Origin: Candidatus Rifleibacterium amylolyticum
GTDB taxonomy: Bacteria; Muiribacteriota; Ozemobacteria; Ozemobacterales; Ozemobacteraceae
Assembly: GCA_009917695.1 (NCBI GenBank)
Contig: JAACJG010000016.1
Location: 1-64,000 of the forward strand
Direction: 5' to 3'
Length of the DNA: 64,000 nt
Position 1 is the first letter of the stretch, and every line of letters starts with the position of its first letter. A program made the position numbers and the translations under genes. The notes beneath the pieces were generated by a model that ran no database searches, was not told the DNA's origin, and saw only the letters and a program-made list of their open reading frames with translations. This document shows positions 22,233-43,023 of this stretch, one piece after another.

Positions 22233-23504
22233 TCAGGCAATGTTGTGTTGTCTGAGGAAACGGGCGATTTCGGTCTGGTCAAGGCTTTCGGCGATCTGTA
22301 CCAGACCCATGCCTGCTTCATTTTTGAGTGAGACATCCGAACCTGCATAGATCAGGGCCTTGACCATTTCAAGCTGCCCGTCTTCGATTGCGCACATCAG
22401 CGCAGTATTGCCGGCGTCGTCGCGGCGGTCGAGCAACGAACCATATTCGAGCAACAGAGCCAGCACTTCCATGTGACCTTCGATTACAGATCTGATCAGT
22501 GGAGTCTGTCCGAAAATACCTTTGATCTCTGGGTCAGAACCTGACTCCAGCAATATTTTCACTATGCCGGCGTTGCCGATATTTACCGCCAGCAGCAGTG
22601 GTGATGAGCCCTGAACGGCTTCGCAGCGGTGCAGATCGGCGTCTTTTTCAATAAGCAGTTCTACCGCTCGCCGGTTCTCTTTTTGAATGGCCTTGAACAA
22701 AAGCGTCATACCGTTATCGTCGTTTTCATTGATCAGATTCGGGTATTGCGCCAGCAACGCGCCGAGGTCGGTGAGCCTGTTTTCTTCGAGCAGTCCGACC
22801 GCCCTGGCAAAATGTCCGGTAACATTGATGGTGCCGGGAATATTGTTAATGGCATCGACCAGTTCAACCAGGCGCAGGCGATCGATGTTATCAGGCAGAG
22901 ACTCCAGATAGCCGGCGAGATCGCCAAGGCTGTTGAGCAATATTGCTGCAATGGTCAGGCTGCCGGACTGTTTGTAGTTGGCGAGCAGACACTCAAGCCC
23001 CTGAATGAAAAGCACCGGGATATCATTGCTCTTGCCAAAGCCCGTGAGAAAACGGGCAAACCCGAAGTTGAGCCGGCTTTGTCGCAGGCGTTCGCAGTAA
23101 ATACAGGCGTTTTGCGCTTTCTGAACACGTGAAATGATATCGGGGTCACGAAATGACATCGTCCAGGCGAGTCGCGACAGTTTGAGGGCAAGCCCGATGT
23201 TATCGCTGTTGCAGGCCAGTTCGGCAGCTACCGAAGTCATGTATGTGGTCTGGTTGCGGTCGAGAATGAACGGATGTTGCTCGGTGGTAAGAAAGAACTC
23301 AAGCGCTTCGCGATCCTGTTCCATTTTAACCAGACAGGTGAACTCGTAAAAGCGTTGCCAGCCAAGCATCATCGGGTCTACCGGTGGGTTGGCGAGCAGG
23401 CGCGCGCGCATCTCGCGGCACAGGTCGAGCGCGGTGCTCAGCATGTTTTCTTTTAACTTGGCTGAAATCTGGTTCAGATAAAATTCAAATACGTTGCTTT
23501 GATT
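22233..23504 (-). CDS. Ankyrin-repeat protein
   Basis: 423 residues from the ATG at 23504, seven bases below the pseudopilin stop; a longer frame to 23645 would overlap that gene wholly and is rejected. Residues 1-250 are helical without a recognised domain. About 255-423 hold roughly five ankyrin repeats, such as 'GMTLLFKAIQKENRRAVELL', 'GSSPLLLAVNIGNAGIVKIL', 'GQTPLIRSVIEGHMEVLALL' and 'GNTALMCAIEDGQLEMVKAL'. No signal peptide. It is probably a protein-binding scaffold. Coupling to a pseudopilin gene suggests a role near a pilus or type II secretion machine, but that is inference. Confidence 0.8.
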   Translation of the reverse strand, partial: NQSNVFEFYLNQISAKLKENMLSTALDLCREMRARLLANPPVDPMMLGWQRFYEFTCLVKMEQDREALEFFLTTEQHPFILDRNQTTYMTSVAAELACNSDNIGLALKLSRLAWTMSFRDPDIISRVQKAQNACIYCERLRQSRLNFGFARFLTGFGKSNDIPVLFIQGLECLLANYKQSGSLTIAAILLNSLGDLAGYLESLPDNIDRLRLVELVDAINNIPGTINVTGHFARAVGLLEENRLTDLGALLAQYPNLINENDDNGMTLLFKAIQKENRRAVELLIEKDADLHRCEAVQGSSPLLLAVNIGNAGIVKILLESGSDPEIKGIFGQTPLIRSVIEGHMEVLALLLEYGSLLDRRDDAGNTALMCAIEDGQLEMVKALIYAGSDVSLKNEAGMGLVQIAESLDQTEIARFLRQHNIA

Positions 23505-23511
23505 CATGCTG

Positions 23512-23886
23512 TTACTCGTAAAAGCCGTGATCGCTGCCGTCGGTAGTCTCGTTGCAGCTGATGCGCAGCTTGTCTTTCTCTCCCTGTATCCAGTATTTGC
23601 CGCCCGACGGGCAGGTCGGGCGCCGCCGCATATAACCTTCTTCATAAAGCATTTTGACGGTCAGGTTGTTGCCGTCGACAGATCGTTCAGTCTGGCATAG
23701 CGTGGCCGCTTTGTAGATAACCCGCATGTTTTCGAGGCAGCTGGTTTTTCTGATTCTGTCGCGAATGCCGACATAACTGAATGAAACCAGCATCATCAGC
23801 ACCGAGATGATCGTAATGACGATCATTATCTCGACGAGGGTAAACCCGCGTTTGCCGTGACTGACTTTTAATTCACTTTGCTTCAT
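23512..23886 (-). CDS. Type IV pilin / type II secretion pseudopilin
   Basis: 124 residues. A short leader ends in Gly, followed by 'FTLVEIMIVITIISVL', the class III prepilin cleavage and N-methylation motif with Glu at +5. After the hydrophobic helix come 'KTSCLENMRVIYKAATLC', a spacer and 'RPTCPSGGKYWI', the GspG-like pattern found in minor pilins and in a large family of environmental pseudopilins. It would be cleaved by a prepilin peptidase, not encoded here. Four Cys may pair. The ankyrin gene starts just after the stop, so the two are co-expressed. Confidence 0.9.
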   Translation of the reverse strand: MKQSELKVSHGKRGFTLVEIMIVITIISVLMMLVSFSYVGIRDRIRKTSCLENMRVIYKAATLCQTERSVDGNNLTVKMLYEEGYMRRRPTCPSGGKYWIQGEKDKLRISCNETTDGSDHGFYE

Positions 23887-25014: not shown

Positions 25015-25455
25015 TTACTTCTGTAACTGTTCGTAGGCGCGGTTGAGCTGGGTGGTTTTTTCGCGGGCCAGCGCCTGCAGCTCAGGTCCGAGACTGTTGA
25101 CCCGATCGGGGTGATACTGCTTTACCAGCTCGTAATAAGCTTTTTTGATTTCTTCGGGGCTGGCATCGCGGCGAACACCAAGAACCTGCCAGGGGTCGGC
25201 TGCAGTTTGCCGGTCTGATTCATGTCGGTTGTGCGTGCCTTTGCCATCACGTTTAGAGTAGCGCTTAGCCATGATTTCATCGACGAGTGGCTTTATAAAC
25301 AGCCAGAAGATGATGATCAGCAATACTAAGATATCGTCGATTCGGCCAATGCGCCCACCACCGTCAGGAAGCAGATCATAAGGCAGCAGAAAATAAAGCA
25401 CCGCCAGGATCATCATGGCGATGAACCTGGCGGCGGCTTTGAGCTGATTAATCAC
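25015..25455 (-). CDS. DUF1232-like membrane protein with C-terminal J domain
   Basis: 146 residues, apparently from a GTG at 25455 that overlaps the upstream BI-1 stop by eight bases. Residues 8-55 contain two membrane helices and the '[20 protein letters not shown]' motif of DUF1232 (YkvA-like). After a charged linker, residues 88-146 are a J domain with '[20 protein letters not shown]' and the HPD tripeptide that stimulates DnaK. It is a membrane-tethered DnaK co-chaperone of unknown client. Confidence 0.85.
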
Positions 25456-26218
25456 GACGCTGCAAAATCAGCAGCAGGCGGAGTATCTCGATATACAGCC
25501 AGATCAGCGTTACCATCAGGCCGAAGGCGGCATACCATTCAAAGTGCTCGGGAGCATTGTTCTCGGCACCTTTGAAGATCATGTCGAAGTCGAGAATCAG
25601 GTTGAAGGCGGCAATGCCGACAATGATCAGACTCAGGCCTATGCCGAGGAGACCACCAGTGTGAAGAGGGCTCATAAAACCCATCCAGCCAAGTATCATC
25701 GAGAACAGGTAAGCAAAGAATACGCCGGCAGTGGCCGACAGGACGCCTGCCTTGAACTTCTCGGTTACCTTGACTATACCTGTCTTATAGAGAAACAGCA
25801 TGCCGCCAAGTGTCATGAAGGTTAACAGAATTGCCATCATCACTATGCTTTCAGCCAGCAGGCCATCCGGGCCGGTGCCGGCGGCAATTTTGACCATTGC
25901 TGACAGCGAACCGAGCAGCAGTCCTTCAAAAACTGCATAAATCGGTGCAGTGAAGCGCGCTTTTGCCGGCGCCATGATAGTGATGATCGCCATGATCAGG
26001 CCACCGATCATGCCGGCCATCATCAGGCCGCCAGCTGCTGAGTTGTATTCCAGGGTCATTTTCCAGGTGAAACTGGCAGCCGAAAATACCAGCACCAGCA
26101 GTATCGCGATTTTATTGATCGCGCCCTGCACGGTCATCACGGCGCCAGCGCCGGAATGTGCCCGTTCAAAATATTCCGCCCGCATGGCGGGATTAGAACT
26201 TCGATCGAATCTGCTCAT
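25448..26218 (-). CDS. Bax inhibitor-1 / YccA family membrane protein
   Basis: 256 residues with about seven membrane helices. An N-terminal soluble stretch '[15 protein letters not shown]' and the C-terminal '[20 protein letters not shown]' with '[20 protein letters not shown]' are the YccA/YetJ signature; the Asp pair gates ion flow in the family. AGGAGG lies before the ATG. Downstream it overlaps the DUF1232-J gene, and YccA proteins are known to modulate membrane proteolysis, so a membrane quality-control unit is plausible. Confidence 0.9.
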
Positions 26219-26237
26219 ATTCTTATTCCTCCTGTCT

Positions 26238-26275
26238 TATCGTGCTCGTAATCGTAATCGTAATCGTTTTCGCTC
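26238..26275. repeat. GATTAC hexamer array
   Basis: Three perfect GATTAC units and degenerate flanking units, read on the minus strand, fill most of the 86-base gap between the coiled-coil gene and the BI-1 gene. Confidence 0.7.
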
Positions 26276-26304
26276 TTTTAATCGAGCTTGCTTTCCAATC
26301 AGCC

Positions 26305-27330
26305 TCATCGTCGCAGCTTTTCTGCTTCGATCAGTCCCTTCTCTAGGTCGTCGAGGCCTGACCTGAGATTTTCGACTTCTTTAACCATACTGTCACTCGA
26401 TGCTTCCATCGTCATAACATCAGTAAATTTCAAGGTGTTCAGATGATCCATCAGGCTGTTGAACATTTCACGCATCTGAAGTTTCTGCATCTTCACCCTG
26501 TTTAGACTCGTCTCGAGATCATTAAGTTTCAGGTTTCTTTCTTCTTTCATTTTAATGGTCGATTCGAGCTGAGCCTTAACCACATCGTCGCTGGCAGTCG
26601 CCAGTTGCTGTCTGAGGCTCTCGATTTCGGAATCGAGCTTATTGCGGTCGATCGTTTTGAGAAACCCGGTCAGGCCGGCGCTGCGTGCGAGAACTGCAGC
26701 ATGCTTGACCTGTAGCTCTTCGACCTGGGCGATGCTTTTGTTCAACAGATTTTTCATTGCCGGCTTGGCGCTATGGTGAACCTTTTTCGCCTTGATCAAT
26801 TCGCCCTCTATCTCACGGAATTCGCCGAGGTCTTCTTCGAGCAGAAGTTCGGCTTCGATATCGCTTTGCGAGAGCTTGAGAATTTTGCGGCGCAGATTGC
26901 TCTGGCTCAAAGCATCGGCGAGACCACTTGCGCCTGCAGTCAGACTTTTCATGGTGACACCGCGTTGAAAGCCAATTACAACCGCGCCGGCTGCTATTGC
27001 TGCCAGTGAGTAAACGCTGAGACCGGCCGCGAGAATTATATATGGAATATAGAACAAGGCAAAGGCCGAAAAGAAGTAGCTGGCGTCGCGCTCTCTTACA
27101 GTTACCACCAGCATGACGAATGCCAGCAGATAGAAAAACAGCTGTGATTCAGACGAAACGCCTTCGCTGGCCTTGAAGATCCACATCATGTAACCATTGA
27201 CCGTGAACCCGCAGAATGAGGCCAGCGTGCGTTTGATTTTGGCGTCGTCTATCGCTTCTTCCGTTTGCAGGTTCTGCACTTCCCGCACCGCTATGGGTGC
27301 TGGGCGTCTTGGTTGCTGAGGTGTCGACAT
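26305..27330 (-). CDS. Hypothetical membrane protein with long coiled coil
   Basis: 341 residues. A polar N-terminus is followed by three or four helices (about 38-120), then more than 180 residues of charged heptad-like sequence predicted to be coiled coil ('KLDSEIESLRQQLATASDDV', 'KEERNLKLNDLETSLNRVKM'). A PspA-like or scaffold role is conceivable, but no family is recognised. GGAGGGG precedes the ATG. Only 16 bases separate it from the VIT-VWA gene upstream, so they are likely one operon. Confidence 0.7.
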   Translation of the reverse strand: MSTPQQPRRPAPIAVREVQNLQTEEAIDDAKIKRTLASFCGFTVNGYMMWIFKASEGVSSESQLFFYLLAFVMLVVTVRERDASYFFSAFALFYIPYIILAAGLSVYSLAAIAAGAVVIGFQRGVTMKSLTAGASGLADALSQSNLRRKILKLSQSDIEAELLLEEDLGEFREIEGELIKAKKVHHSAKPAMKNLLNKSIAQVEELQVKHAAVLARSAGLTGFLKTIDRNKLDSEIESLRQQLATASDDVVKAQLESTIKMKEERNLKLNDLETSLNRVKMQKLQMREMFNSLMDHLNTLKFTDVMTMEASSDSMVKEVENLRSGLDDLEKGLIEAEKLRR

Positions 27331-27346: not shown

Positions 27347-29839
27347 TCAGGACTCTTTACCAGAGAACAGAGCTATAATACCGCCGATGATTTTGAACGG
27401 CACCGAAAGTATAGCGTACATCAAATACAGTGAGAAGACAAGACCGATGATGAACAGGGGCACGTTGATCAACAGGTTGAGCACATCTGCCAGCCAGCTG
27501 TTCCAGATACGGGTGAACCAGGTGTCGCCTTCATAGCGTACTTCAATTACTTCGCCTGATGTCTGACCGTCTGAGAAACTGAGGAAAGTTCCCTTACGGA
27601 TCTGATTGCGCACTTCATCGGAGGTGTTCTCGTCGAAAGGGTGATCGGGCGAACCATGAACGGCGCAGATGACTTTACCGCCGCGTATGAAACCTTCGTC
27701 GGTAGTTGCGAAGCAACAGGTTTGCTCTGCCATGACGATGGGTGATTTGAGATACTTGCCCTGCACGAGATCATTCATGGTATTTGCGTCGAGAGCATCG
27801 ATCATCTTTGAGTTATCCATGTTATACATCTCGATAGCACCCATGAGTACCCGCTGGTTGGCAAAACATGCTTTACCGCGAGCCTGCTGACGTGCTTTTC
27901 TGAAATTGGGAACGGCAAGCGCGCCTATAGGCAGGAAACCGGTAGCTCCCCAGAGTGAGAGTGATTTGGCTTCGGTGCGTTTTACAATAGTGCGGGTTGG
28001 CGCAGTGCCGGAAGGAACCGTCGGTCTGGCCATTACTGATACGTTGCGGGCACTGGCTGGTTCGTTGCGGGCTTTGCTGCGTGCTGCGGCCTGCTGGCTG
28101 ACCTGAGGAACCGGTGTCGTAGAAACCGCGACGAATGAAGTAAACGGAGTGGCAAACTGATACTTTTTGCTGAGCGCGATCACTTCGTCTTTGAGTTCAG
28201 GCTTCTGGCCGTAGGTCTGCATCTGCAGCATGAGGTCGTCTGCCTTCGCTTTGGCCCAGAAGCGGCTCACAAAGAGATTCTCGTTAGACTCCTCGGCAAA
28301 AACGGCCTTTACCGGGAAGCTCTGCTTAACTGTGTTGAGAAAGCCGGTTAAGTTGATATCAGCTGAGACACCCTTTTTATAGCGTCCGGTGATGACCAGC
28401 TGGGTGCCCTGATAAATGTTGGGCAGTGTTTTCGGGAACACATCGCTGACTTCGGCATTGCCCCAGTCAAGTGCGAGATCGACGAGCAGCGGTGTGCTGA
28501 TGCTTTCATAGAAAGCCATGAGTTCCTGGTCGATATTCTGCGAATTTTCTGACAGATAAAGTGCTTCGCCGCGATTTTCAACTGCGATTTTGTTGAGAAG
28601 AACGGTGTTGACGCTGCTGCCGACGCCGAGGGTGAAAGTGCGCACCTGGGCAGTGTTGGCAGCGTTGAAGTCACGCACAATTGTGTTGCTGTCGGTGATG
28701 CCTGTGCTGGCTTCGCCATCGGTCAAAAATACCAGCGTTCTGGTGCGGCCTTCTGACTGGTCGAACAGCTTGAGCGCTGCCTGCAGTGAGCCATAAATAT
28801 TGGTTCCGCCGCTGGCGTAAAGCATTTCAATAAAAGCGCCGGCGACTTTGCGGTTCTCGTCGCTGACCGGCAGCAGCTCAGGCATCCAGGTATTGACCTG
28901 TGACGAAAACGCCACAATACCAAAACGGTCATTCTCATTGAGGCGCTTGACGAAAAAATCGAATGCACGCTTGGTCTGTTCCATCTTGCGGCCAGACATC
29001 GAACCAGAAGTATCGACGACGAAAACGATGTCGCGCATTGCGATATCTTCAGCGCTGATGATCTCGGCGGGTGAAAGCATCAACATAAAATAACCGTCTT
29101 GTCCGGCTTCTGGTCGTGTTGTCAGGAAATTGGTGGCGAGAGCTTCTGCTTTGACGTCGTAATTGAGCCTGAAGTCGCCGGCAGGCAGGTAATTGTTTTT
29201 CTCGAATACAACGTTCCATGTGCCGTTTTCAGCCTTTTCAGCGTATATATCATGGCTGAGAGACACTACTGTGCTGATCTCTTTCTGGTCGGTGATGGTA
29301 ACACTGATCGCAGAGGTTTCTAGGTTGGGTTCCTGATACTGCTTGACGTTGAAAGGCAGCAGATAACTTACATTGCCACGACTGTAAGCAAGAATCTCGC
29401 TGTATTCAATCATTACAGTTGCGTGTGATTTGGGGCCAATTGCACCGATGCTGGTTTCGAAAACACCAGGCTGTTTCTGCACGGCCATTGCCGGCATCAT
29501 GCCTTCGGCCTTGGCTTCGTTGAATACCTGAGTAGCTTTGTTGCTTTCTTCGATGGTGCCGGCAAAAACGTTGCCTTCACTGTCGGTCAGCGAAAACTGC
29601 TGAACCGAAGCTTTCTCGTGTATGGGAAATCTTATGTTCGGTTGAATGGTGTAGTCGTTGGGGTTGTAAAACGACATCTCAAGCCTGGTTACTGCTACCT
29701 GGTTGTTGATGTCAACCTTGACTTTCTGCCTGACCATAGGCAGGGTGCCGTTCTGGTAAACCAGATAGGCAGCCTCGACCGGCATTGAACCGAGCACGAA
29801 AAACATTGTAATGATACAGAAGATAAAAGCCTTCTTCAT
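27347..29839 (-). CDS. VIT-VWA protein with a pilin-like C-terminal domain and membrane helices
   Basis: 830 residues. A signal peptide covers 1-23. A VIT domain (about 24-155, 'IRFPIHEKASVQQFSLTDSE', 'NEAKAEGMM') and a VWA domain (about 268-440) follow, the latter with an intact MIDAS 'VVDTSGSMSG' and 'SGGTNIYGSL' plus 'FLTDGEAS'. This matches inter-alpha-trypsin-inhibitor heavy-chain-like proteins. Around 632-760 the sequence changes to a pseudopilin body: 'VPNFRKARQQARGKACFANQ', 'AIEMYNMDNSKM', and later paired Cys. It is preceded by a hydrophobic segment but lacks a prepilin cleavage site. Two helices at about 785-825 anchor the C-terminus. A good ribosome-binding site (GAGGGGG) and a TATAAT (29875-29880, minus) lie upstream. 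Confidence 0.85.
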   Translation of the reverse strand: MKKAFIFCIITMFFVLGSMPVEAAYLVYQNGTLPMVRQKVKVDINNQVAVTRLEMSFYNPNDYTIQPNIRFPIHEKASVQQFSLTDSEGNVFAGTIEESNKATQVFNEAKAEGMMPAMAVQKQPGVFETSIGAIGPKSHATVMIEYSEILAYSRGNVSYLLPFNVKQYQEPNLETSAISVTITDQKEISTVVSLSHDIYAEKAENGTWNVVFEKNNYLPAGDFRLNYDVKAEALATNFLTTRPEAGQDGYFMLMLSPAEIISAEDIAMRDIVFVVDTSGSMSGRKMEQTKRAFDFFVKRLNENDRFGIVAFSSQVNTWMPELLPVSDENRKVAGAFIEMLYASGGTNIYGSLQAALKLFDQSEGRTRTLVFLTDGEASTGITDSNTIVRDFNAANTAQVRTFTLGVGSSVNTVLLNKIAVENRGEALYLSENSQNIDQELMAFYESISTPLLVDLALDWGNAEVSDVFPKTLPNIYQGTQLVITGRYKKGVSADINLTGFLNTVKQSFPVKAVFAEESNENLFVSRFWAKAKADDLMLQMQTYGQKPELKDEVIALSKKYQFATPFTSFVAVSTTPVPQVSQQAAARSKARNEPASARNVSVMARPTVPSGTAPTRTIVKRTEAKSLSLWGATGFLPIGALAVPNFRKARQQARGKACFANQRVLMGAIEMYNMDNSKMIDALDANTMNDLVQGKYLKSPIVMAEQTCCFATTDEGFIRGGKVICAVHGSPDHPFDENTSDEVRNQIRKGTFLSFSDGQTSGEVIEVRYEGDTWFTRIWNSWLADVLNLLINVPLFIIGLVFSLYLMYAILSVPFKIIGGIIALFSGKES

Positions 29840-35861: not shown

Positions 35862-38800
35862 TTACCATTCTGAATACAGCGCCTTGCCTTCGAGATCGAT
35901 TCGATTGTTGGGCGAATAGATCTTCGCGCCTTCACCATATGCTGTTGGACGATCGCGGCCGCTGGCTTTTTCCAGCTGCACGCCGTCGAACCAGACATCT
36001 GTTCCGACGATGCTGGAACTGTTGCTGAGAATAAGATAGGTACTTTCGGTCAGGGCATCGAGTGAACCGTTGAATTTAAGAAACAGACGATACCAGGTTT
36101 TGTTGCCGGTTCTTATGCGGCCGGCTATGCCACCGGCGCCTGCCGGGTCGAGATTGCCGTTCTGATCTATGGTGACATAGATCATAGGCACAGAAGGTGT
36201 GTCGTCATTTTTGTCCTGCCGGAAGCCGATGGTCGCTGAAGCCGGCAAGCCATCTTCGAATCCGACATAGGCAGAGAAGATGAAGTCGTCGCCACCGCTG
36301 AAGGTTTCGGTAGCGATGCTTTGAAAAACGGTACCAGCTTCAAGATTTTTCGGCCCGGTCTGGGCAACGACCAGAACTGATGGAGCAATATTCACTGATG
36401 CAACCGGATATACTGTACTGTCCAGCGTTTGGACACCAGTGTAAGTGCCGGTTGCCTGGGCTGGATCAGCTTCAAATGTGATGCTGGCGATATAGGTCGC
36501 GCCCGGCGCCAGAGATGGCAACGGGTTTGGCGAGAAGGTCGGCACCATGGTGCCGCCGTCGCTTCCGTTCATTGTAGCCATTGGCGCTCCCCAGCTCAGG
36601 TCGCTTAGTGTGACATTGCCGGTGTTCTGGTAGGTAACGTTCACCGCAACTTTCTGCCCAAGCGAAACCGTCACCGGAAAAGCGGTATCAACCGCCGTAA
36701 TCGACAATCCTGGACTTTCTGCAACAGTAAGCGTCAGCAAAAATGTGTCTGATGCTTCCCTTATTGGGTCAAGTGCATTGTCGAATGGCGTTAGATCATC
36801 ATCGAATACTGTTTGAATAGCTGAATATATTCCTGGAGGAGTGTATTGCGGAATGATCACGCTTGCCGTGCAGTTGAGAGTGCCGCCTGCTGCTACTGAA
36901 CCAGGTGGCGTAAGAGTCGGGGTTAACGTCGCCGTTCCGTCACTGATTCCCTGTGGGATCCATCTTATGCGATTCGTATTGATATTGCCAGTGTTACTTA
37001 GTGTGAAATTAGTTGTGGCTGTTGTAGCATGCGCATGTGAGCCCATATTTACATCGTTTACGCTGATCAGTTTGGTTCCAACCAGAACTTTTGTTGTAAA
37101 GGTCGCAGTAACTTCACCTGAAGTATAAGAAATGTATGGCGCATCAGTATCGACATAGGCTCTCTGCGTTCCTTGGTAGTTGCCTGTGGCCTGCCCGACA
37201 GGAATTGTCAGAGTCGCAATTGCAGGGGATGAGCCGCCAACAGCCAGGTTCGTGGCGAAAGGAATGGGGTCGAACTGAATCTGCGCGTCTGGTATAGGAA
37301 TGCCAGGCCCAAGCGGCGGTAACCAGCTGGCAATTTCTCTTATATCGCTTGCTATTGGCTGATTGCCAAGATTGACTATGTTGAAACTGACAGCTGAAGA
37401 CCGGTCTGGTGCAACAGTTCCGAAGTCTAAGGTGGTCGGGCTGATACCGATAACAGTTTTGGCAATAACTCTCAACTTAAGATTGGCAGTATCTGAAGCT
37501 TCAGCTGGATCATCTATGTCACTGTTACCATTCGTGTCGTTCCAGACAGTTATTGTGCCTATATATTCGCCTTCCGGGGTGCCGGGCGGAACATTGACCT
37601 GCCATGTTCCGGTCAGGGTCTTGTTTTTGATCATGTATTCAAAAACGCTCGGTATAAAAATCGATGCAGTCGCTGGAATGGTCGTAGGCCCAACCAGAGC
37701 TGAGGCAGTGGCCATAGGTCGGTTCAAAATCAGCGTGCCGATGTTGTCAATTGTGAATTCGCATGTGTCAGATATGAGTGAAGGCATAGCATCTTCGATC
37801 AGCAGATCAGTTTCTACAATATCGATGAATTTAGTACCAACCTGGCAGGAAACGGTGAAAAATGCCTGAGGGTCACCTGTCAGATCAGGGTAATCACCCA
37901 GCAGATCATCATATATCGAGGCATATTGGCCAATATAATCGCCGTCAAGAATCGCCGGGTCGTTGGGGACCGTCAATGTCATGGTAGCAGGAAATATTGT
38001 GTTTGCCGGCTGGGGCGGCTGCGGATCAAAATCGTAATTGATGTCACTTAATAGTGGCACTCCATCGAGGCTGAGCGGAATTTTCTCCCAGCCAAGATCG
38101 CTAAGTAGAATGTTGCCTGTGTTTTTTACACTGAAAGTTGCAACACCAGTTTCAAGTTTGGAAAGAGGGCCGGCATCGGCTATTGGTGTAAGCACGCGTA
38201 GGCCACGGTAGGGAACGACATACATTTGTAGCGTCAGGATTTCAGGCGCTTCATTGTCATCGCCAAGATAGGTTCCGTCGCCGTCTTCGTCCTCGAATAC
38301 GGTAACAATACCGGAATAGGTGCCAATAGGCATGCCGGCAGGTACGTAAGCATTGATATAGGCTGTTCCTGTTGCCAGAACAGTTATGCTGGCCGGAAGG
38401 GTTAACTCGATTTCTTCTGCCGGTATGTAGAAGGCCGGGGTAGCGATGTTGTACATGTTGTCAATGATGCATTTGAGACAACTGAGAGTTTTGTCACCAA
38501 TGTTGGTGATTTTAAAACTGGCTTCTGGCAGCGGAAAGGTCGGTGTCGCATTGCCAAAATCGACAAGAGACGGGGTAAAATGCATCAGCTGGTTCCCGAT
38601 ACCGATTTCGAGTTGAAAGGTTGCGCTGGCACGGCCGTCGTTGGGGTTGCCGTCATCGTTGAGGTCTTCCCAGACGATAAAGTCGACAACATAATCGCCG
38701 TCGGTGGCTGCGGCATCTATATAGCCTGATATAGAAGCAATCTGGGCTGCTGTTGTCGTCATATCGCCGGCTGTAGCAGGTGTCACTGTTAAGGTAAAAT

Positions 38801-41800
38801 CAGTGGCCGTCTGTTGCTTGATTTTGACTTTTTCGAGCAATAGATTGCCCCCGTTAAAAATCGTAATGGATTTTGTGGCAATTGTATTGCCTATCTTCCA
38901 GTCGCCAAGGCTGACTGACTCTGGGAGTGTGTAGATAACCCGGCACTGACTGGCAGTGACAGTTGAGTTAAAGACATAGTTTGGCTCTCCGGCGTCAAGA
39001 ACGCCATTATACGGCGGCATATCTTCGAAAACGCTCATTGTTGCAATGTAGCTTCCGGCCGGTTGATTGTAAGGCATGTGCAGTTCTGCATAGGTGCTGG
39101 TAGCCGAGGGTGCTGCAACGGGAACAATGAAGCCCGACAACGGATACATGGTCAGCTGCGAAGGATGCAGCAGGTCTGCTGCAGCTGATTCATAAAAACC
39201 TTTATTCCAGCTGGTATGTGTCAGATCGGTCGAACCCAGATTGTTGACTTTACTGTTGCCGACGGTCTTATGCTCGCCGCAGACCATTGTGCCAAAATCG
39301 AGCGTTGCCGAGGCGTAAGACAGGTCACGATAACGTATTTTCAAAGGAGCAGAAATCGCAACGCCTGAAGTAGCATAACCAGGATCTGTCGATAGCAGAT
39401 TCGCGTCGTTGCCGGTGGCGCTTGCTATCATCTCCATAGTCCCAAGACCTGTATTCGTTAGCGCTCTGTATGTCCAGGTGAAACTCGCTGTGGCTCCGGC
39501 TTTTAGATCAATTGAAGGCGGATCCGGTTCTGTTAACCTCAACAGAGTTCCGCTGCCCGTGGAAAACTTGAGTGGATCGAGCGAAGGAATAATGTTTTCA
39601 ATCGTAGATCCCAGATTGACGTTGTTTGAAATTTCTAGAACAAGCGTGGTTTCCTGATTTTCTTCAATATCATCAGGTATAAAAGTAAGCTTAGCTGTGA
39701 TGCTACCAGGGTTTTGCACTTCGAAAAACTGTCTGGAGAGAAAAGTCTGGAGATTACCATTCCCAGAGTTACAGGTATACAAAAGTGTTTTCCAATCGCC
39801 GGCAGGACCAGGAATTGTGTAATTTTGAATTCTGACACCTACATTGGCTTTTTCATGGTCTGTAACCGGGGTTGCATTGTTTTCCGTTCCATTTCTTGCC
39901 AGGAAAAGTACCCTTATATTGTCTGCTCCCGGTATGTCTGTGTATTTGGCCCAGATCTCCTGCCCGACGTTGAATGTATATTGTTCGGTAGTGAACGCAG
40001 AATCTTTCGAACAATATCCAACAATGTTGCTGGCCATGATTAACCATGAATCACTGTCTGCACTGGTAGAACTAATTGCCGGTGAGGTTGACCAGTTTGC
40101 ATCTATACCTTCCGCAAATCCTCTTATGACAGGTGTTACCCCGGTAGCTGAATCGCTGGCAACAGCTACTTTAAAAGTGAAGGTTACAGGTGTGTTAGCT
40201 GCGAGTAAGAAAGGAAGAGCAGGATTTTCAAGCGTCTGATAATGAGTTCCCAGTGAAAAGGTTAAGCTGGCAGTATTTAACCATATAGAAGCTTGCCCGG
40301 TATTCTCAATATCCATTGTTACAACTAGATCGTGCTGGTTGAGATAGACTTGCGTTTCTGCGGCTACTATATTTCTTACTTCTAAAACAGGTGGTGTCTG
40401 TATGTCACAGGTATTGCTTGTGTCGGTTGCAGCAGTTAAAGAGCGCAGGTCATTCGAATCGACGCCATAACCACTGCCATGAAGGGTAAATGAACCTGGT
40501 GTCGCGGCAGTGTAGTTCCATGTTATGTCGGTGTAACTATAAGGTTCAACCGTAACCAGTCCTTGACTGGGACCCGAATTAAAGACAGCGGTACCTACGT
40601 TGCCCAAATCGAGGGTCAAAACAGATGCATAGGCTGTATCGACGCGGCTACCACCGCTGTTTACAAGCCGGGATGTTGCCTGAAAGGGTTGATTTACTGT
40701 TACTGAATCTGGCAGCAACACTTGAATACTAAGGCTGGCCGGATCGACAACGTCGAAATAGGTTTCGCACAGAGGAATCTCATTGGTTACACGCGAAACG
40801 ATGACACGCCACTTGCCGAGAAAAGTCGGGTCGTTGCTGAGCGTATAACTGTTGGTGAGAATGCCGGAGGGGTCTGTGAATACCATATCAGCCTGAACCT
40901 GCGATCCCCCCGGCTTATACCAGCGCATTCTGTAGTCGCGGTCTGGTTGCAGGTTGCTGCCTTTTGTATAGACGGTAAAGTTGCCGAGATTGAAGCTGTC
41001 AGCTTCGATTGTCCAGGCGGGAAATCCAAGTGGGCCGCGAAAAGTTTTCAGTACGCCGGATCTGATAGTCCAGCTGGGGGGAGTGGTATCACCAGTATTA
41101 TAGACAAAAGAATTGTAGGTGTTTCCATCAACATAACTCATACTGGCGTTTATAGTGCTTGTTCCGGTTGCTGATACTGGCGAAATGTCGATGTCGAATC
41201 TGATAACTTTCGTTTGGCCAGTCAATATAGTTTCTGAATAAGGTTCACTTACACCATAAGGACGCTGGTTGAGATAAGTGCCGAGACTGAAATGCAGTTC
41301 CGTGTCATTCCAGAGATCCCAGACTGCGGCTGCTTCACCATCGTTGCGCACGGTGATGTAAATGCCGGCTCCAGTCTGGTCGAGATATACTGTTGAAGAG
41401 GCAGTAATATCAAGAATTTTAAGGTTGGGTGGTTCTTGTATCTGCCAGAATGCTTTTACGTCAGATTCGTTATCTTCGATTGCTGCCAGAGTAATGCTGT
41501 TGCTGCCTGTGCACTTTGCGTCTATATAATCTATGCCTGATACGCTGTCGGTGCCTACTCCGACCAGCAGAGTAATGATCTTTGATTCGCCACCTGAGAT
41601 TGTAACAGGCAAAGTCGGTGATGGCGCGCCTATGATGTAGTCTCCATAAACCGGGGCATCGAAAATCAGTTCGATGGTATTCAGTGTTGCAGAGTTGCTG
41701 CCTGTATTTGCTACAGAAACCATTACAGGAAGCCCATTTTGCCCCTTTGTTACATTGGTTGTGGTTGTTTCTACTTTGGTGATCTGCAAACGGGCGCTGC

Positions 41801-42815
41801 GGTAAACAACTGGTAGAGAAAGCGGGGATTCAACGTCTGTGGTATCGACGTCAGATACGGCATACCAAGCTACATCCTGGGTTGGCGAGGCAGTATAAGT
41901 GGTGGATGCAGTTGAAGTGATTGTCGCAATCTGTGTCCATGGGCCATTTTCACTGTCATAGCTGCAATATATACGGTAGGGGTTGGTAGGTTTCAAGCCA
42001 TTTGCGCCGGTACCCGGCGTGCTGACATCCCAGGTGAGCTGGCAACCTCCTCTGGATGAACCGGAGACAGGAACGCTGGTTTCTACTGCTGTGAGGCCTG
42101 ATGGACTGATGTTGCAGGTAATATCATCTAACCACAGCTGAATGGTGTAGTTCTTATCGCCGGTAAGAGTCATAAAAAAGTGAACTATATAAGATTCTCC
42201 CGCCTCAAATAACATATCTGTTTGATTGGGAGTTGACCATGAGGTCTGGAGCGTTGCACCCGTGTGTGAAATTGCATGAAAAGTGCCACCGTCAATTACG
42301 GTGTCTGGAGCCGTAGATTTTCGAATAGTTCCCAGGTGTGCCGTTTTTGTTTCGGCTGTGGGGCTTGAGGCTTCCCGATATCTTAACGACACTCTTGCGT
42401 TAACGTTTGTATTTCGGGGGGGGGCAAGAAATTCTTGAAAAACAGTGAAATATGCACTGTAACCGAGGGTGGGGGCCTGAGTACCTTTGGTCTTGAAGTA
42501 GGACCATAAGGCGTCTACGCTATTGTCCTGGTCAAAGTCTGTTGTTCCTCCATCGTTAGTGGTTACCGGCTCAAGCGTCCAACCTGTTGTATCGGTATCG
42601 AAAGTGCTGTTTTGGATCTGATTGAGGGCGAAGGCATGGGATGAAATAAGTGTGAAAGCTATAATGAGCGACAGCAGGCAAGTAAAAAAGCGCAAAGATC
42701 GCGAAGTATTTGCGCGAGTGTTGGTGGGTGTTGCGTGGCGGCCAGTAAAAAATGTCGTTTCAGAACCTCTTTGCCTGCCGAATGCCGGCGTGGCGCTTAT
42801 GTGCTTATCTCTCAT
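35862..42815 (-). CDS. Giant secreted/surface protein with tandem Ig-like repeats
   Basis: 2317 residues from the ATG at 42815, supported by GGAG seven bases upstream; the frame is open to 42944. A long basic n-region leads to a signal peptide ending near residue 64 ('LISSHAFA'). About 65-220 is a jelly-roll-like region, about 230-320 an Fn3-like domain ('NPYRIYCSYDSENGPWTQIA'), and about 330-1170 CARDB/NEW3-like units ('VANTGSNSATL', 'ITVRNDGEAAAVWDLW'). About 1170-2150 holds eight units of roughly 125-135 residues with 'LDFG' starts, 'NLGN' or 'NTGN' strands and acidic DxDxDG loops such as 'FEDEDGDGTYLGDD'. The C-terminus is a lectin-like beta-sandwich. It is probably an extracellular adhesin or filament, with calcium-stabilised repeats (inference). 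No sorting signal was identified. Confidence 0.8.
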   Translation of the reverse strand: MRDKHISATPAFGRQRGSETTFFTGRHATPTNTRANTSRSLRFFTCLLSLIIAFTLISSHAFALNQIQNSTFDTDTTGWTLEPVTTNDGGTTDFDQDNSVDALWSYFKTKGTQAPTLGYSAYFTVFQEFLAPPRNTNVNARVSLRYREASSPTAETKTAHLGTIRKSTAPDTVIDGGTFHAISHTGATLQTSWSTPNQTDMLFEAGESYIVHFFMTLTGDKNYTIQLWLDDITCNISPSGLTAVETSVPVSGSSRGGCQLTWDVSTPGTGANGLKPTNPYRIYCSYDSENGPWTQIATITSTASTTYTASPTQDVAWYAVSDVDTTDVESPLSLPVVYRSARLQITKVETTTTNVTKGQNGLPVMVSVANTGSNSATLNTIELIFDAPVYGDYIIGAPSPTLPVTISGGESKIITLLVGVGTDSVSGIDYIDAKCTGSNSITLAAIEDNESDVKAFWQIQEPPNLKILDITASSTVYLDQTGAGIYITVRNDGEAAAVWDLWNDTELHFSLGTYLNQRPYGVSEPYSETILTGQTKVIRFDIDISPVSATGTSTINASMSYVDGNTYNSFVYNTGDTTPPSWTIRSGVLKTFRGPLGFPAWTIEADSFNLGNFTVYTKGSNLQPDRDYRMRWYKPGGSQVQADMVFTDPSGILTNSYTLSNDPTFLGKWRVIVSRVTNEIPLCETYFDVVDPASLSIQVLLPDSVTVNQPFQATSRLVNSGGSRVDTAYASVLTLDLGNVGTAVFNSGPSQGLVTVEPYSYTDITWNYTAATPGSFTLHGSGYGVDSNDLRSLTAATDTSNTCDIQTPPVLEVRNIVAAETQVYLNQHDLVVTMDIENTGQASIWLNTASLTFSLGTHYQTLENPALPFLLAANTPVTFTFKVAVASDSATGVTPVIRGFAEGIDANWSTSPAISSTSADSDSWLIMASNIVGYCSKDSAFTTEQYTFNVGQEIWAKYTDIPGADNIRVLFLARNGTENNATPVTDHEKANVGVRIQNYTIPGPAGDWKTLLYTCNSGNGNLQTFLSRQFFEVQNPGSITAKLTFIPDDIEENQETTLVLEISNNVNLGSTIENIIPSLDPLKFSTGSGTLLRLTEPDPPSIDLKAGATASFTWTYRALTNTGLGTMEMIASATGNDANLLSTDPGYATSGVAISAPLKIRYRDLSYASATLDFGTMVCGEHKTVGNSKVNNLGSTDLTHTSWNKGFYESAAADLLHPSQLTMYPLSGFIVPVAAPSATSTYAELHMPYNQPAGSYIATMSVFEDMPPYNGVLDAGEPNYVFNSTVTASQCRVIYTLPESVSLGDWKIGNTIATKSITIFNGGNLLLEKVKIKQQTATDFTLTVTPATAGDMTTTAAQIASISGYIDAAATDGDYVVDFIVWEDLNDDGNPNDGRASATFQLEIGIGNQLMHFTPSLVDFGNATPTFPLPEASFKITNIGDKTLSCLKCIIDNMYNIATPAFYIPAEEIELTLPASITVLATGTAYINAYVPAGMPIGTYSGIVTVFEDEDGDGTYLGDDNEAPEILTLQMYVVPYRGLRVLTPIADAGPLSKLETGVATFSVKNTGNILLSDLGWEKIPLSLDGVPLLSDINYDFDPQPPQPANTIFPATMTLTVPNDPAILDGDYIGQYASIYDDLLGDYPDLTGDPQAFFTVSCQVGTKFIDIVETDLLIEDAMPSLISDTCEFTIDNIGTLILNRPMATASALVGPTTIPATASIFIPSVFEYMIKNKTLTGTWQVNVPPGTPEGEYIGTITVWNDTNGNSDIDDPAEASDTANLKLRVIAKTVIGISPTTLDFGTVAPDRSSAVSFNIVNLGNQPIASDIREIASWLPPLGPGIPIPDAQIQFDPIPFATNLAVGGSSPAIATLTIPVGQATGNYQGTQRAYVDTDAPYISYTSGEVTATFTTKVLVGTKLISVNDVNMGSHAHATTATTNFTLSNTGNINTNRIRWIPQGISDGTATLTPTLTPPGSVAAGGTLNCTASVIIPQYTPPGIYSAIQTVFDDDLTPFDNALDPIREASDTFLLTLTVAESPGLSITAVDTAFPVTVSLGQKVAVNVTYQNTGNVTLSDLSWGAPMATMNGSDGGTMVPTFSPNPLPSLAPGATYIASITFEADPAQATGTYTGVQTLDSTVYPVASVNIAPSVLVVAQTGPKNLEAGTVFQSIATETFSGGDDFIFSAYVGFEDGLPASATIGFRQDKNDDTPSVPMIYVTIDQNGNLDPAGAGGIAGRIRTGNKTWYRLFLKFNGSLDALTESTYLILSNSSSIVGTDVWFDGVQLEKASGRDRPTAYGEGAKIYSPNNRIDLEGKALYSEW
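42416..42424. repeat. Homopolymer of nine G (C9 in the coding strand)
   Basis: A run of nine G on the plus strand lies inside the giant surface-protein gene, near codon 130. It encodes part of Ala-Pro-Pro-Arg. Gain or loss of one base would truncate the product, so the tract could switch the gene on and off. Confidence 0.6.
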
Positions 42816-43023
42816 CTGTTTGCTCCGCTTATTTAAATCCTGAACCAGCCTTTCTGCCTGTTGCGCAAAAAGACTGCTGTTTTCTTCTATATTCAGTATA
42901 ACAGACCTCCCGCCCGTACCGCAGCAAAATGTACGAAAAAACACCGCGACCTCTGCAACCGGACCTTTTTCAACGCAGAGTCAAAATATTGCGTCTGCTG
43001 GCAGAAAGCCTCAAAGTATCAGC

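Follow-up and report, generated by a model that had tools for sequence, protein, structure and literature searches.

A pilin-derived body without its prepilin signal in a VIT-VWA protein of Candidatus Riflebacteria: a candidate docking module for PilA

Introduction

Pilins are normally defined by an N-terminal signal and a membrane helix. The gene at 27347-29839 of the window (the whole 64,000-nucleotide stretch of the Candidatus Rifleibacterium amylolyticum genome analysed here) encodes a protein, P0001, in which VIT and VWA domains are followed by a pilin-like body that has neither. The question raised by this locus is where the body comes from and what it does in a protein that appears unable to mature as a pilin. 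The order of its parts, from gene to C-terminus and downstream neighbour, is as follows.

27347..29839 (-), P0001, VIT-VWA-pilin body-TM protein of 830 aa; an open reading frame, with the same order in orthologues of families f1, f6 and f8
29768..29839 (-), signal peptide, about residues 1-24; KD19 peak of 2.0 at residues 4-22, and a hydrophobic N terminus in orthologues
29402..29731 (-), VIT domain, residues 37-146; Pfam PF08487, 2e-20, 73 bits
28529..29032 (-), VWA domain, residues 270-437; Pfam PF00092, 2e-23, 84 bits
27965..28105 (-), variable disordered linker, residues 579-625; pLDDT <50 over most of it, length differing among orthologues
27908..27964 (-), residues 626-644, SLSLWGATGFLPIGALAVP, where a pilin has transmembrane helix alpha1-N; no G|FxxxE site
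27638..27922 (-), pilin body, residues 640-734, with Cys 658, 708, 709 and 725; 62% identity to the genome's own PilA over 91 aa
27356..27508 (-), C-terminal membrane helix region, residues 778-828; KD19 peak of 2.4
26305..27330 (-), neighbouring gene downstream, same strand, 16 bp past the P0001 stop codon; no Pfam match

Results

Domain organization of P0001

The N-terminal hydrophobic segment is a predicted signal peptide, probably cleaved after VEAA. The VIT and VWA domains that follow it both exceed their Pfam cut-offs, and motif inspection finds a complete MIDAS in the VWA domain (D276, S278, S280, T346 and D374). The full-length model (pLDDT 76) matches inter-alpha-trypsin inhibitor (ITIH) heavy chain 1 (6fpy, E 2.7e-42). 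That protein and the bacterial VIT-VWA proteins share the architecture and fold of P0001 over VIT and VWA, but lack a pilin body and a membrane helix. The same region resembles the marine sortase targets described by TIGR03788, reaching 306 bits against a model cut-off of 552; P0001, unlike those proteins, ends in the pilin body and a membrane helix, and a motif search found no LPXTG sorting signal. Sortase anchoring was rejected for lack of this signal.

Beyond residue 437 P0001 has no Pfam match. Neither N_methyl nor the PilY1 beta-propeller (PF05567) was matched by Pfam anywhere in the protein, and NCBIfam gives a weak ComGC match at residues 641-699 (E 0.0014).

The gene lies away from the pil genes. 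Its adjacency to the downstream gene is kept at loci L120 and L121, as is that of the wider 25448-27330 (-) segment, where the VIT-VWA gene has behind it the uncharacterized gene and one resembling Bax inhibitor 1; at L123 both genes are again near a VIT-VWA gene. Elsewhere in the window, 35862-42944 (-) encodes a repetitive, secreted-looking protein of 2,360 aa.

The body resembles the genome's own PilA

When the genome was searched with P0001, an ordinary prepilin was returned at 58% identity (E 1.6e-30); in direct comparison, 56 of 91 residues (62%) are identical. This prepilin (G000:C6; L116:9370-9735) has 122 aa, a GFTLIE signal and a full alpha1 helix. Its gene belongs to a pilB-pilT-pilA-pilD cluster, flanked by pilT and the gene for the prepilin peptidase; we therefore call it PilA, and it is likely the major pilin. 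The similarity covers PNFRKARQQAR, the EMYNMD helix, the spacer, the YLK motif and the C..HG end, and so amounts to more than a shared basic amphipathic helix. The body occupies the same place in P0001 orthologues. On this alignment, the body is a homologue of the PilA body of its own genome.

A sequence-only reading of the locus had proposed a VIT-VWA protein with a C-terminal pilin-like body, and this description holds. The same reading had likened the body to the pseudopilin at 23512, a comparison that fails: the two are 24% identical over 80 aa with a pairwise E of 1.6, and the pseudopilin, being only a distant relative, was rejected as the source. Its open reading frame overlaps the 5' end of an ankyrin-like frame listed at 22233-23645 (the two together span 22233-23886 (-)), whose start probably lies further downstream than listed.

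What is retained is the homology of alpha1-C and the head to a true pilin; what is missing is the approximately 20-residue hydrophobic alpha1-N. Replacement in P0001 affects about the first 14 residues of the pilin helix: its first half, FTLIELMIVIAIIG, has given way to SLSLWGATGFLPIGA. The segment SLWGATGFLPIGA, standing in place of alpha1-N, has a KD19 value of 1.29, against 2.99 in the genome's own PilA. A motif search of P0001 found no class III (prepilin cleavage) site of the form G|FxxxE with Glu5, as the sequence-only reading had stated.

In the model, the body (pLDDT 84) consists of a long helix (residues 646-675), a short helix and a two-stranded beta-hairpin. Foldseek with the body alone against the PDB gave nothing significant, the best pilin match being CofA at E 9. 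Of the pilin-like helix plus beta-sheet expected for this region, then, the long helix is present and the sheet is reduced to a hairpin; with no significant fold match, the structural expectation is borne out only weakly, and the pilin homology rests on sequence. By sequence, PulG (5wda, E 1.1e-5) and other pilins are reached by a profile built from 51 bodies, true signal-bearing pilins among them.

Two terminal membrane helices had also been suggested. The C-terminal hydrophobic region is there, but the count of two is open to doubt: the hydropathy profile shows a single unbroken stretch (778-828), the model a single helix (774-825), and orthologues in genus g4 have space for one membrane helix only. 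With this helix separate from the body and the pilin's own membrane segment lost, the suggestion that the pilin domain serves as a fixed anchor is doubtful.

Comparison with VWA-bearing pilins

A VWA domain at the pilus tip is established for PilB of Streptococcus sanguinis (PMC8179133) and has been proposed to act in tip adhesion or surface sensing for CpaL of the Caulobacter Tad pilus (PMC12607857). A link between P0001 and a pilus is therefore plausible, although order, signal and anchoring differ. Like PilB, P0001 joins a pilin module and a MIDAS-bearing VWA domain in one polypeptide; the PilB module, however, is N-terminal, carries a class III signal and is polymerized (PMC8179133), whereas that of P0001 is C-terminal, lacks the signal and alpha1-N, and has a hydrophobic helix behind it. 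CpaL likewise combines a pilin-like domain with VWA, but its pilin-like domain is N-terminal with a membrane helix, its VWA domain is split by a beta-rich insert, and no VIT domain is described (PMC12607857).

The PilB precedent (PMC8179133) would allow P0001 to be a modular pilin built into the pilus so as to present VWA at the tip. The reversed order, the missing class III signal and Glu5, the loss of the pilin membrane helix and the presence of a separate C-terminal hydrophobic one make this very improbable.

The fusion is old

The order VIT-VWA-body-TM occurs in 17 genomes of three families: 15 of family f1 (where some fusions are split over contigs), G026 (f6) and G036 (f8). Within f1 the SLWGAxGF and TPWxTRIWN flanks are mostly conserved, and PNFRKAR(Q/E)(Q)(A/S)R is kept in nearly all fusions despite the replaced upstream membrane part. 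This region corresponds to the part of the pilin helix that packs against neighbouring subunits.

In a tree of the VIT-VWA region, 16 fused proteins fall on one side of a branch with support 97/95, against 17 unfused ones, the rows of G026 and G036 having very long branches. One clade of hosts implies an old fusion, and a single ancient event is the simplest reading of the tree; repeated independent fusions are disfavoured by the same clade, though the G026 and G036 branches are very long. The earlier proposal that a MIDAS-bearing VIT-VWA protein was fused to a pilin-derived module is supported by sequence, phylogeny and conservation.

The body is widespread in the phylum

Matches to the body occur in 39 of 40 Riflebacteria genomes, at 1 to 50 per genome, with 18 in the window's genome. 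Genomes G018 and G021 (family f1, genus g11) carry 47 and 50, far above every other genome sampled from the phylum. Among the bodies read in the window's genome only one belongs to an ordinary prepilin; the others are hosted by a 1,880-aa protein, a second VIT protein, a double-body protein and several lipoprotein-like or single-helix proteins. Our literature search turned up no account of pilin bodies in this phylum.

Two of these hosts deserve description. The 1,880-aa protein (L117:2625-8264 (-), G000:C1) has no Pfam match and contains an internal prepilin-like segment, GFRLAELMIVVAIIG, which includes GFRLAELMIV; a pilin body comes after it. It is unusual for a large multi-helix protein to have a prepilin site in its interior; the glutamate of this site is kept in most family f1 orthologues and lost in some. 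Directly after this gene lies a small multi-helix frame that contains FFHELSH and resembles a membrane metallopeptidase (L117:1919-2641 (-)). The second VIT protein (L118:5997-8102 (+), G000:C10) has 702 aa and a PilA-like body, with relatives in G001 and G002.

Its presence in many other hosts means that the body may be a general building block: an exposed domain of the phylum (for redox, metal or protein binding, for example), pilin-derived, spread by domain shuffling and with a role unrelated to pili. Host kinds as different as lipoprotein-like, zinc-ribbon, signal-peptide and multi-pass proteins, copy numbers of up to 50, and Cys and His positions largely retained across 51 bodies agree with such a domain. 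We consider it unlikely: the VIT fusion follows PilA more closely than the other hosts (see below), and this reading offers no reason for that. The many copies per genome would also suit a silent cassette reservoir for pilin variation, as in Neisseria, but the copies read lie in intact larger reading frames and their DNA is too diverged (the longest match in the window's genome is 14 nt), so that this explanation is extremely improbable.

The VIT-fusion body changes in step with the pilin of its own genome

Across the 17 genomes, the mean identity between fusion body and pilin is 0.643 within a genome and 0.516 with the pilins of other genomes (permutation p = 2e-5); none of 50,000 permutations reached the own-pilin excess, and using a single genome for each lineage gives the same outcome. 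In family f1 by itself the values are 0.642 and 0.560 (p = 5e-5). These coupling tests were picked after the data were seen. In all nine lineages, however distant, within-genome identity stays between 0.59 and 0.67.

The body trees, which rest on fewer than 100 columns, join the VIT-fusion body to the pilin found in the same genome or subclade: G026 (99/96, together with the body of the giant), G036 (98/95), G009 (97/97) and G000/1/2/5 (100/97). An AU test against a single clade of fused bodies gave p = 0.038, post hoc. Some columns match genome by genome, among them ANxR Q/M/I, RxQAR E/Q and IxPA A/P, in 15 of 15 cases each. In G009 a shifted cysteine, CPESGG, is found in both fusion body and pilin, and in G026 a loop insert containing TTVV is common to pilin, VIT fusion and giant.

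Two unrelated hosts of the body are coupled less. In a comparison over eight genomes the VIT fusion has an identity of 0.653 to its own pilin and 0.577 to others, an excess of 0.076. The excess is 0.019 for the double-body protein (0.550 vs 0.531, p 0.04) and 0.009 for the 1,850-aa giants in seven of these genomes (0.579 vs 0.570, p 0.17). With the full sample, the giants too are closer to their own pilin (0.604 vs 0.535), by a smaller margin than the VIT fusion, and in G010/G017 their bodies group with their pilins (100/98). Genome-wide residue bias is disfavoured as the cause of coupling because these two other hosts show little or none.

Discussion

The main rival to a functional tie is concerted evolution without shared function, in which pilA occasionally overwrites the fusion stretch by recombination, so that body and pilin stay alike, while the body itself serves as a disulfide-stabilized spacer or stalk by the membrane. 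The shared insertions and cysteine shifts in G026 and G009, the similar within-genome identity in all nine lineages and the many body copies per genome as templates favour it, and the shared loop insertions of G026 look more like copying than interface adaptation. The present DNA bears no trace of such exchange: among conserved residues, identical codons make up 0.44 between fusion and pilA in the window's genome and 0.42 between genomes, and the longest exact match of body to pilA is 14 nt. Recent gene conversion was rejected on this basis, and older copying between the two genes is possible. Moreover, the double-body host, an equal target, is hardly coupled. We regard concerted evolution as a serious possibility, though less likely than not.

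We favour, with a confidence somewhat short of the balance of probability, the reading of P0001 as a membrane-anchored VIT-VWA protein with a pilus-docking module. The signal peptide would export the protein and the C-terminal membrane helix would hold it, placing VIT and VWA outside the cytoplasm. The membrane-near body, apparently derived from the major pilin of a type IV pilus, no longer carries a leader or Glu5, and its first helix lacks the hydrophobic half; it would for that reason be neither matured nor polymerized like a pilin. The remaining helix and head were kept and have changed along with the cell's own PilA, which suggests that the body works with the pilus, though it is not built in in the usual way. 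It could make contacts of the pilin-pilin type with PilA, either with subunits pooled in the membrane or at the base of the pilus. Docking of this kind would tie a MIDAS domain that binds ligands or senses force to the pilus machinery. We infer the topology, the contact with PilA, ligand binding and sensing alike.

More broadly, we tentatively propose, as a possibility that falls clearly short of probable, that in Riflebacteria the major pilin has lent its body to envelope proteins as a reusable docking domain, grafted on without the polymerization signal. In the VIT-VWA proteins this copy would be kept matched to the pilus subunit of the same cell, giving proteins that are not part of the pilus a means to engage it or its pool of subunits. 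If this is true, a body that lacks signal and membrane helix and still tracks the major pilin would indicate that a pilin head can act as a detachable interaction module, and a large uncultured group would have a route that ties VWA-based sensing or adhesion to type IV pili.
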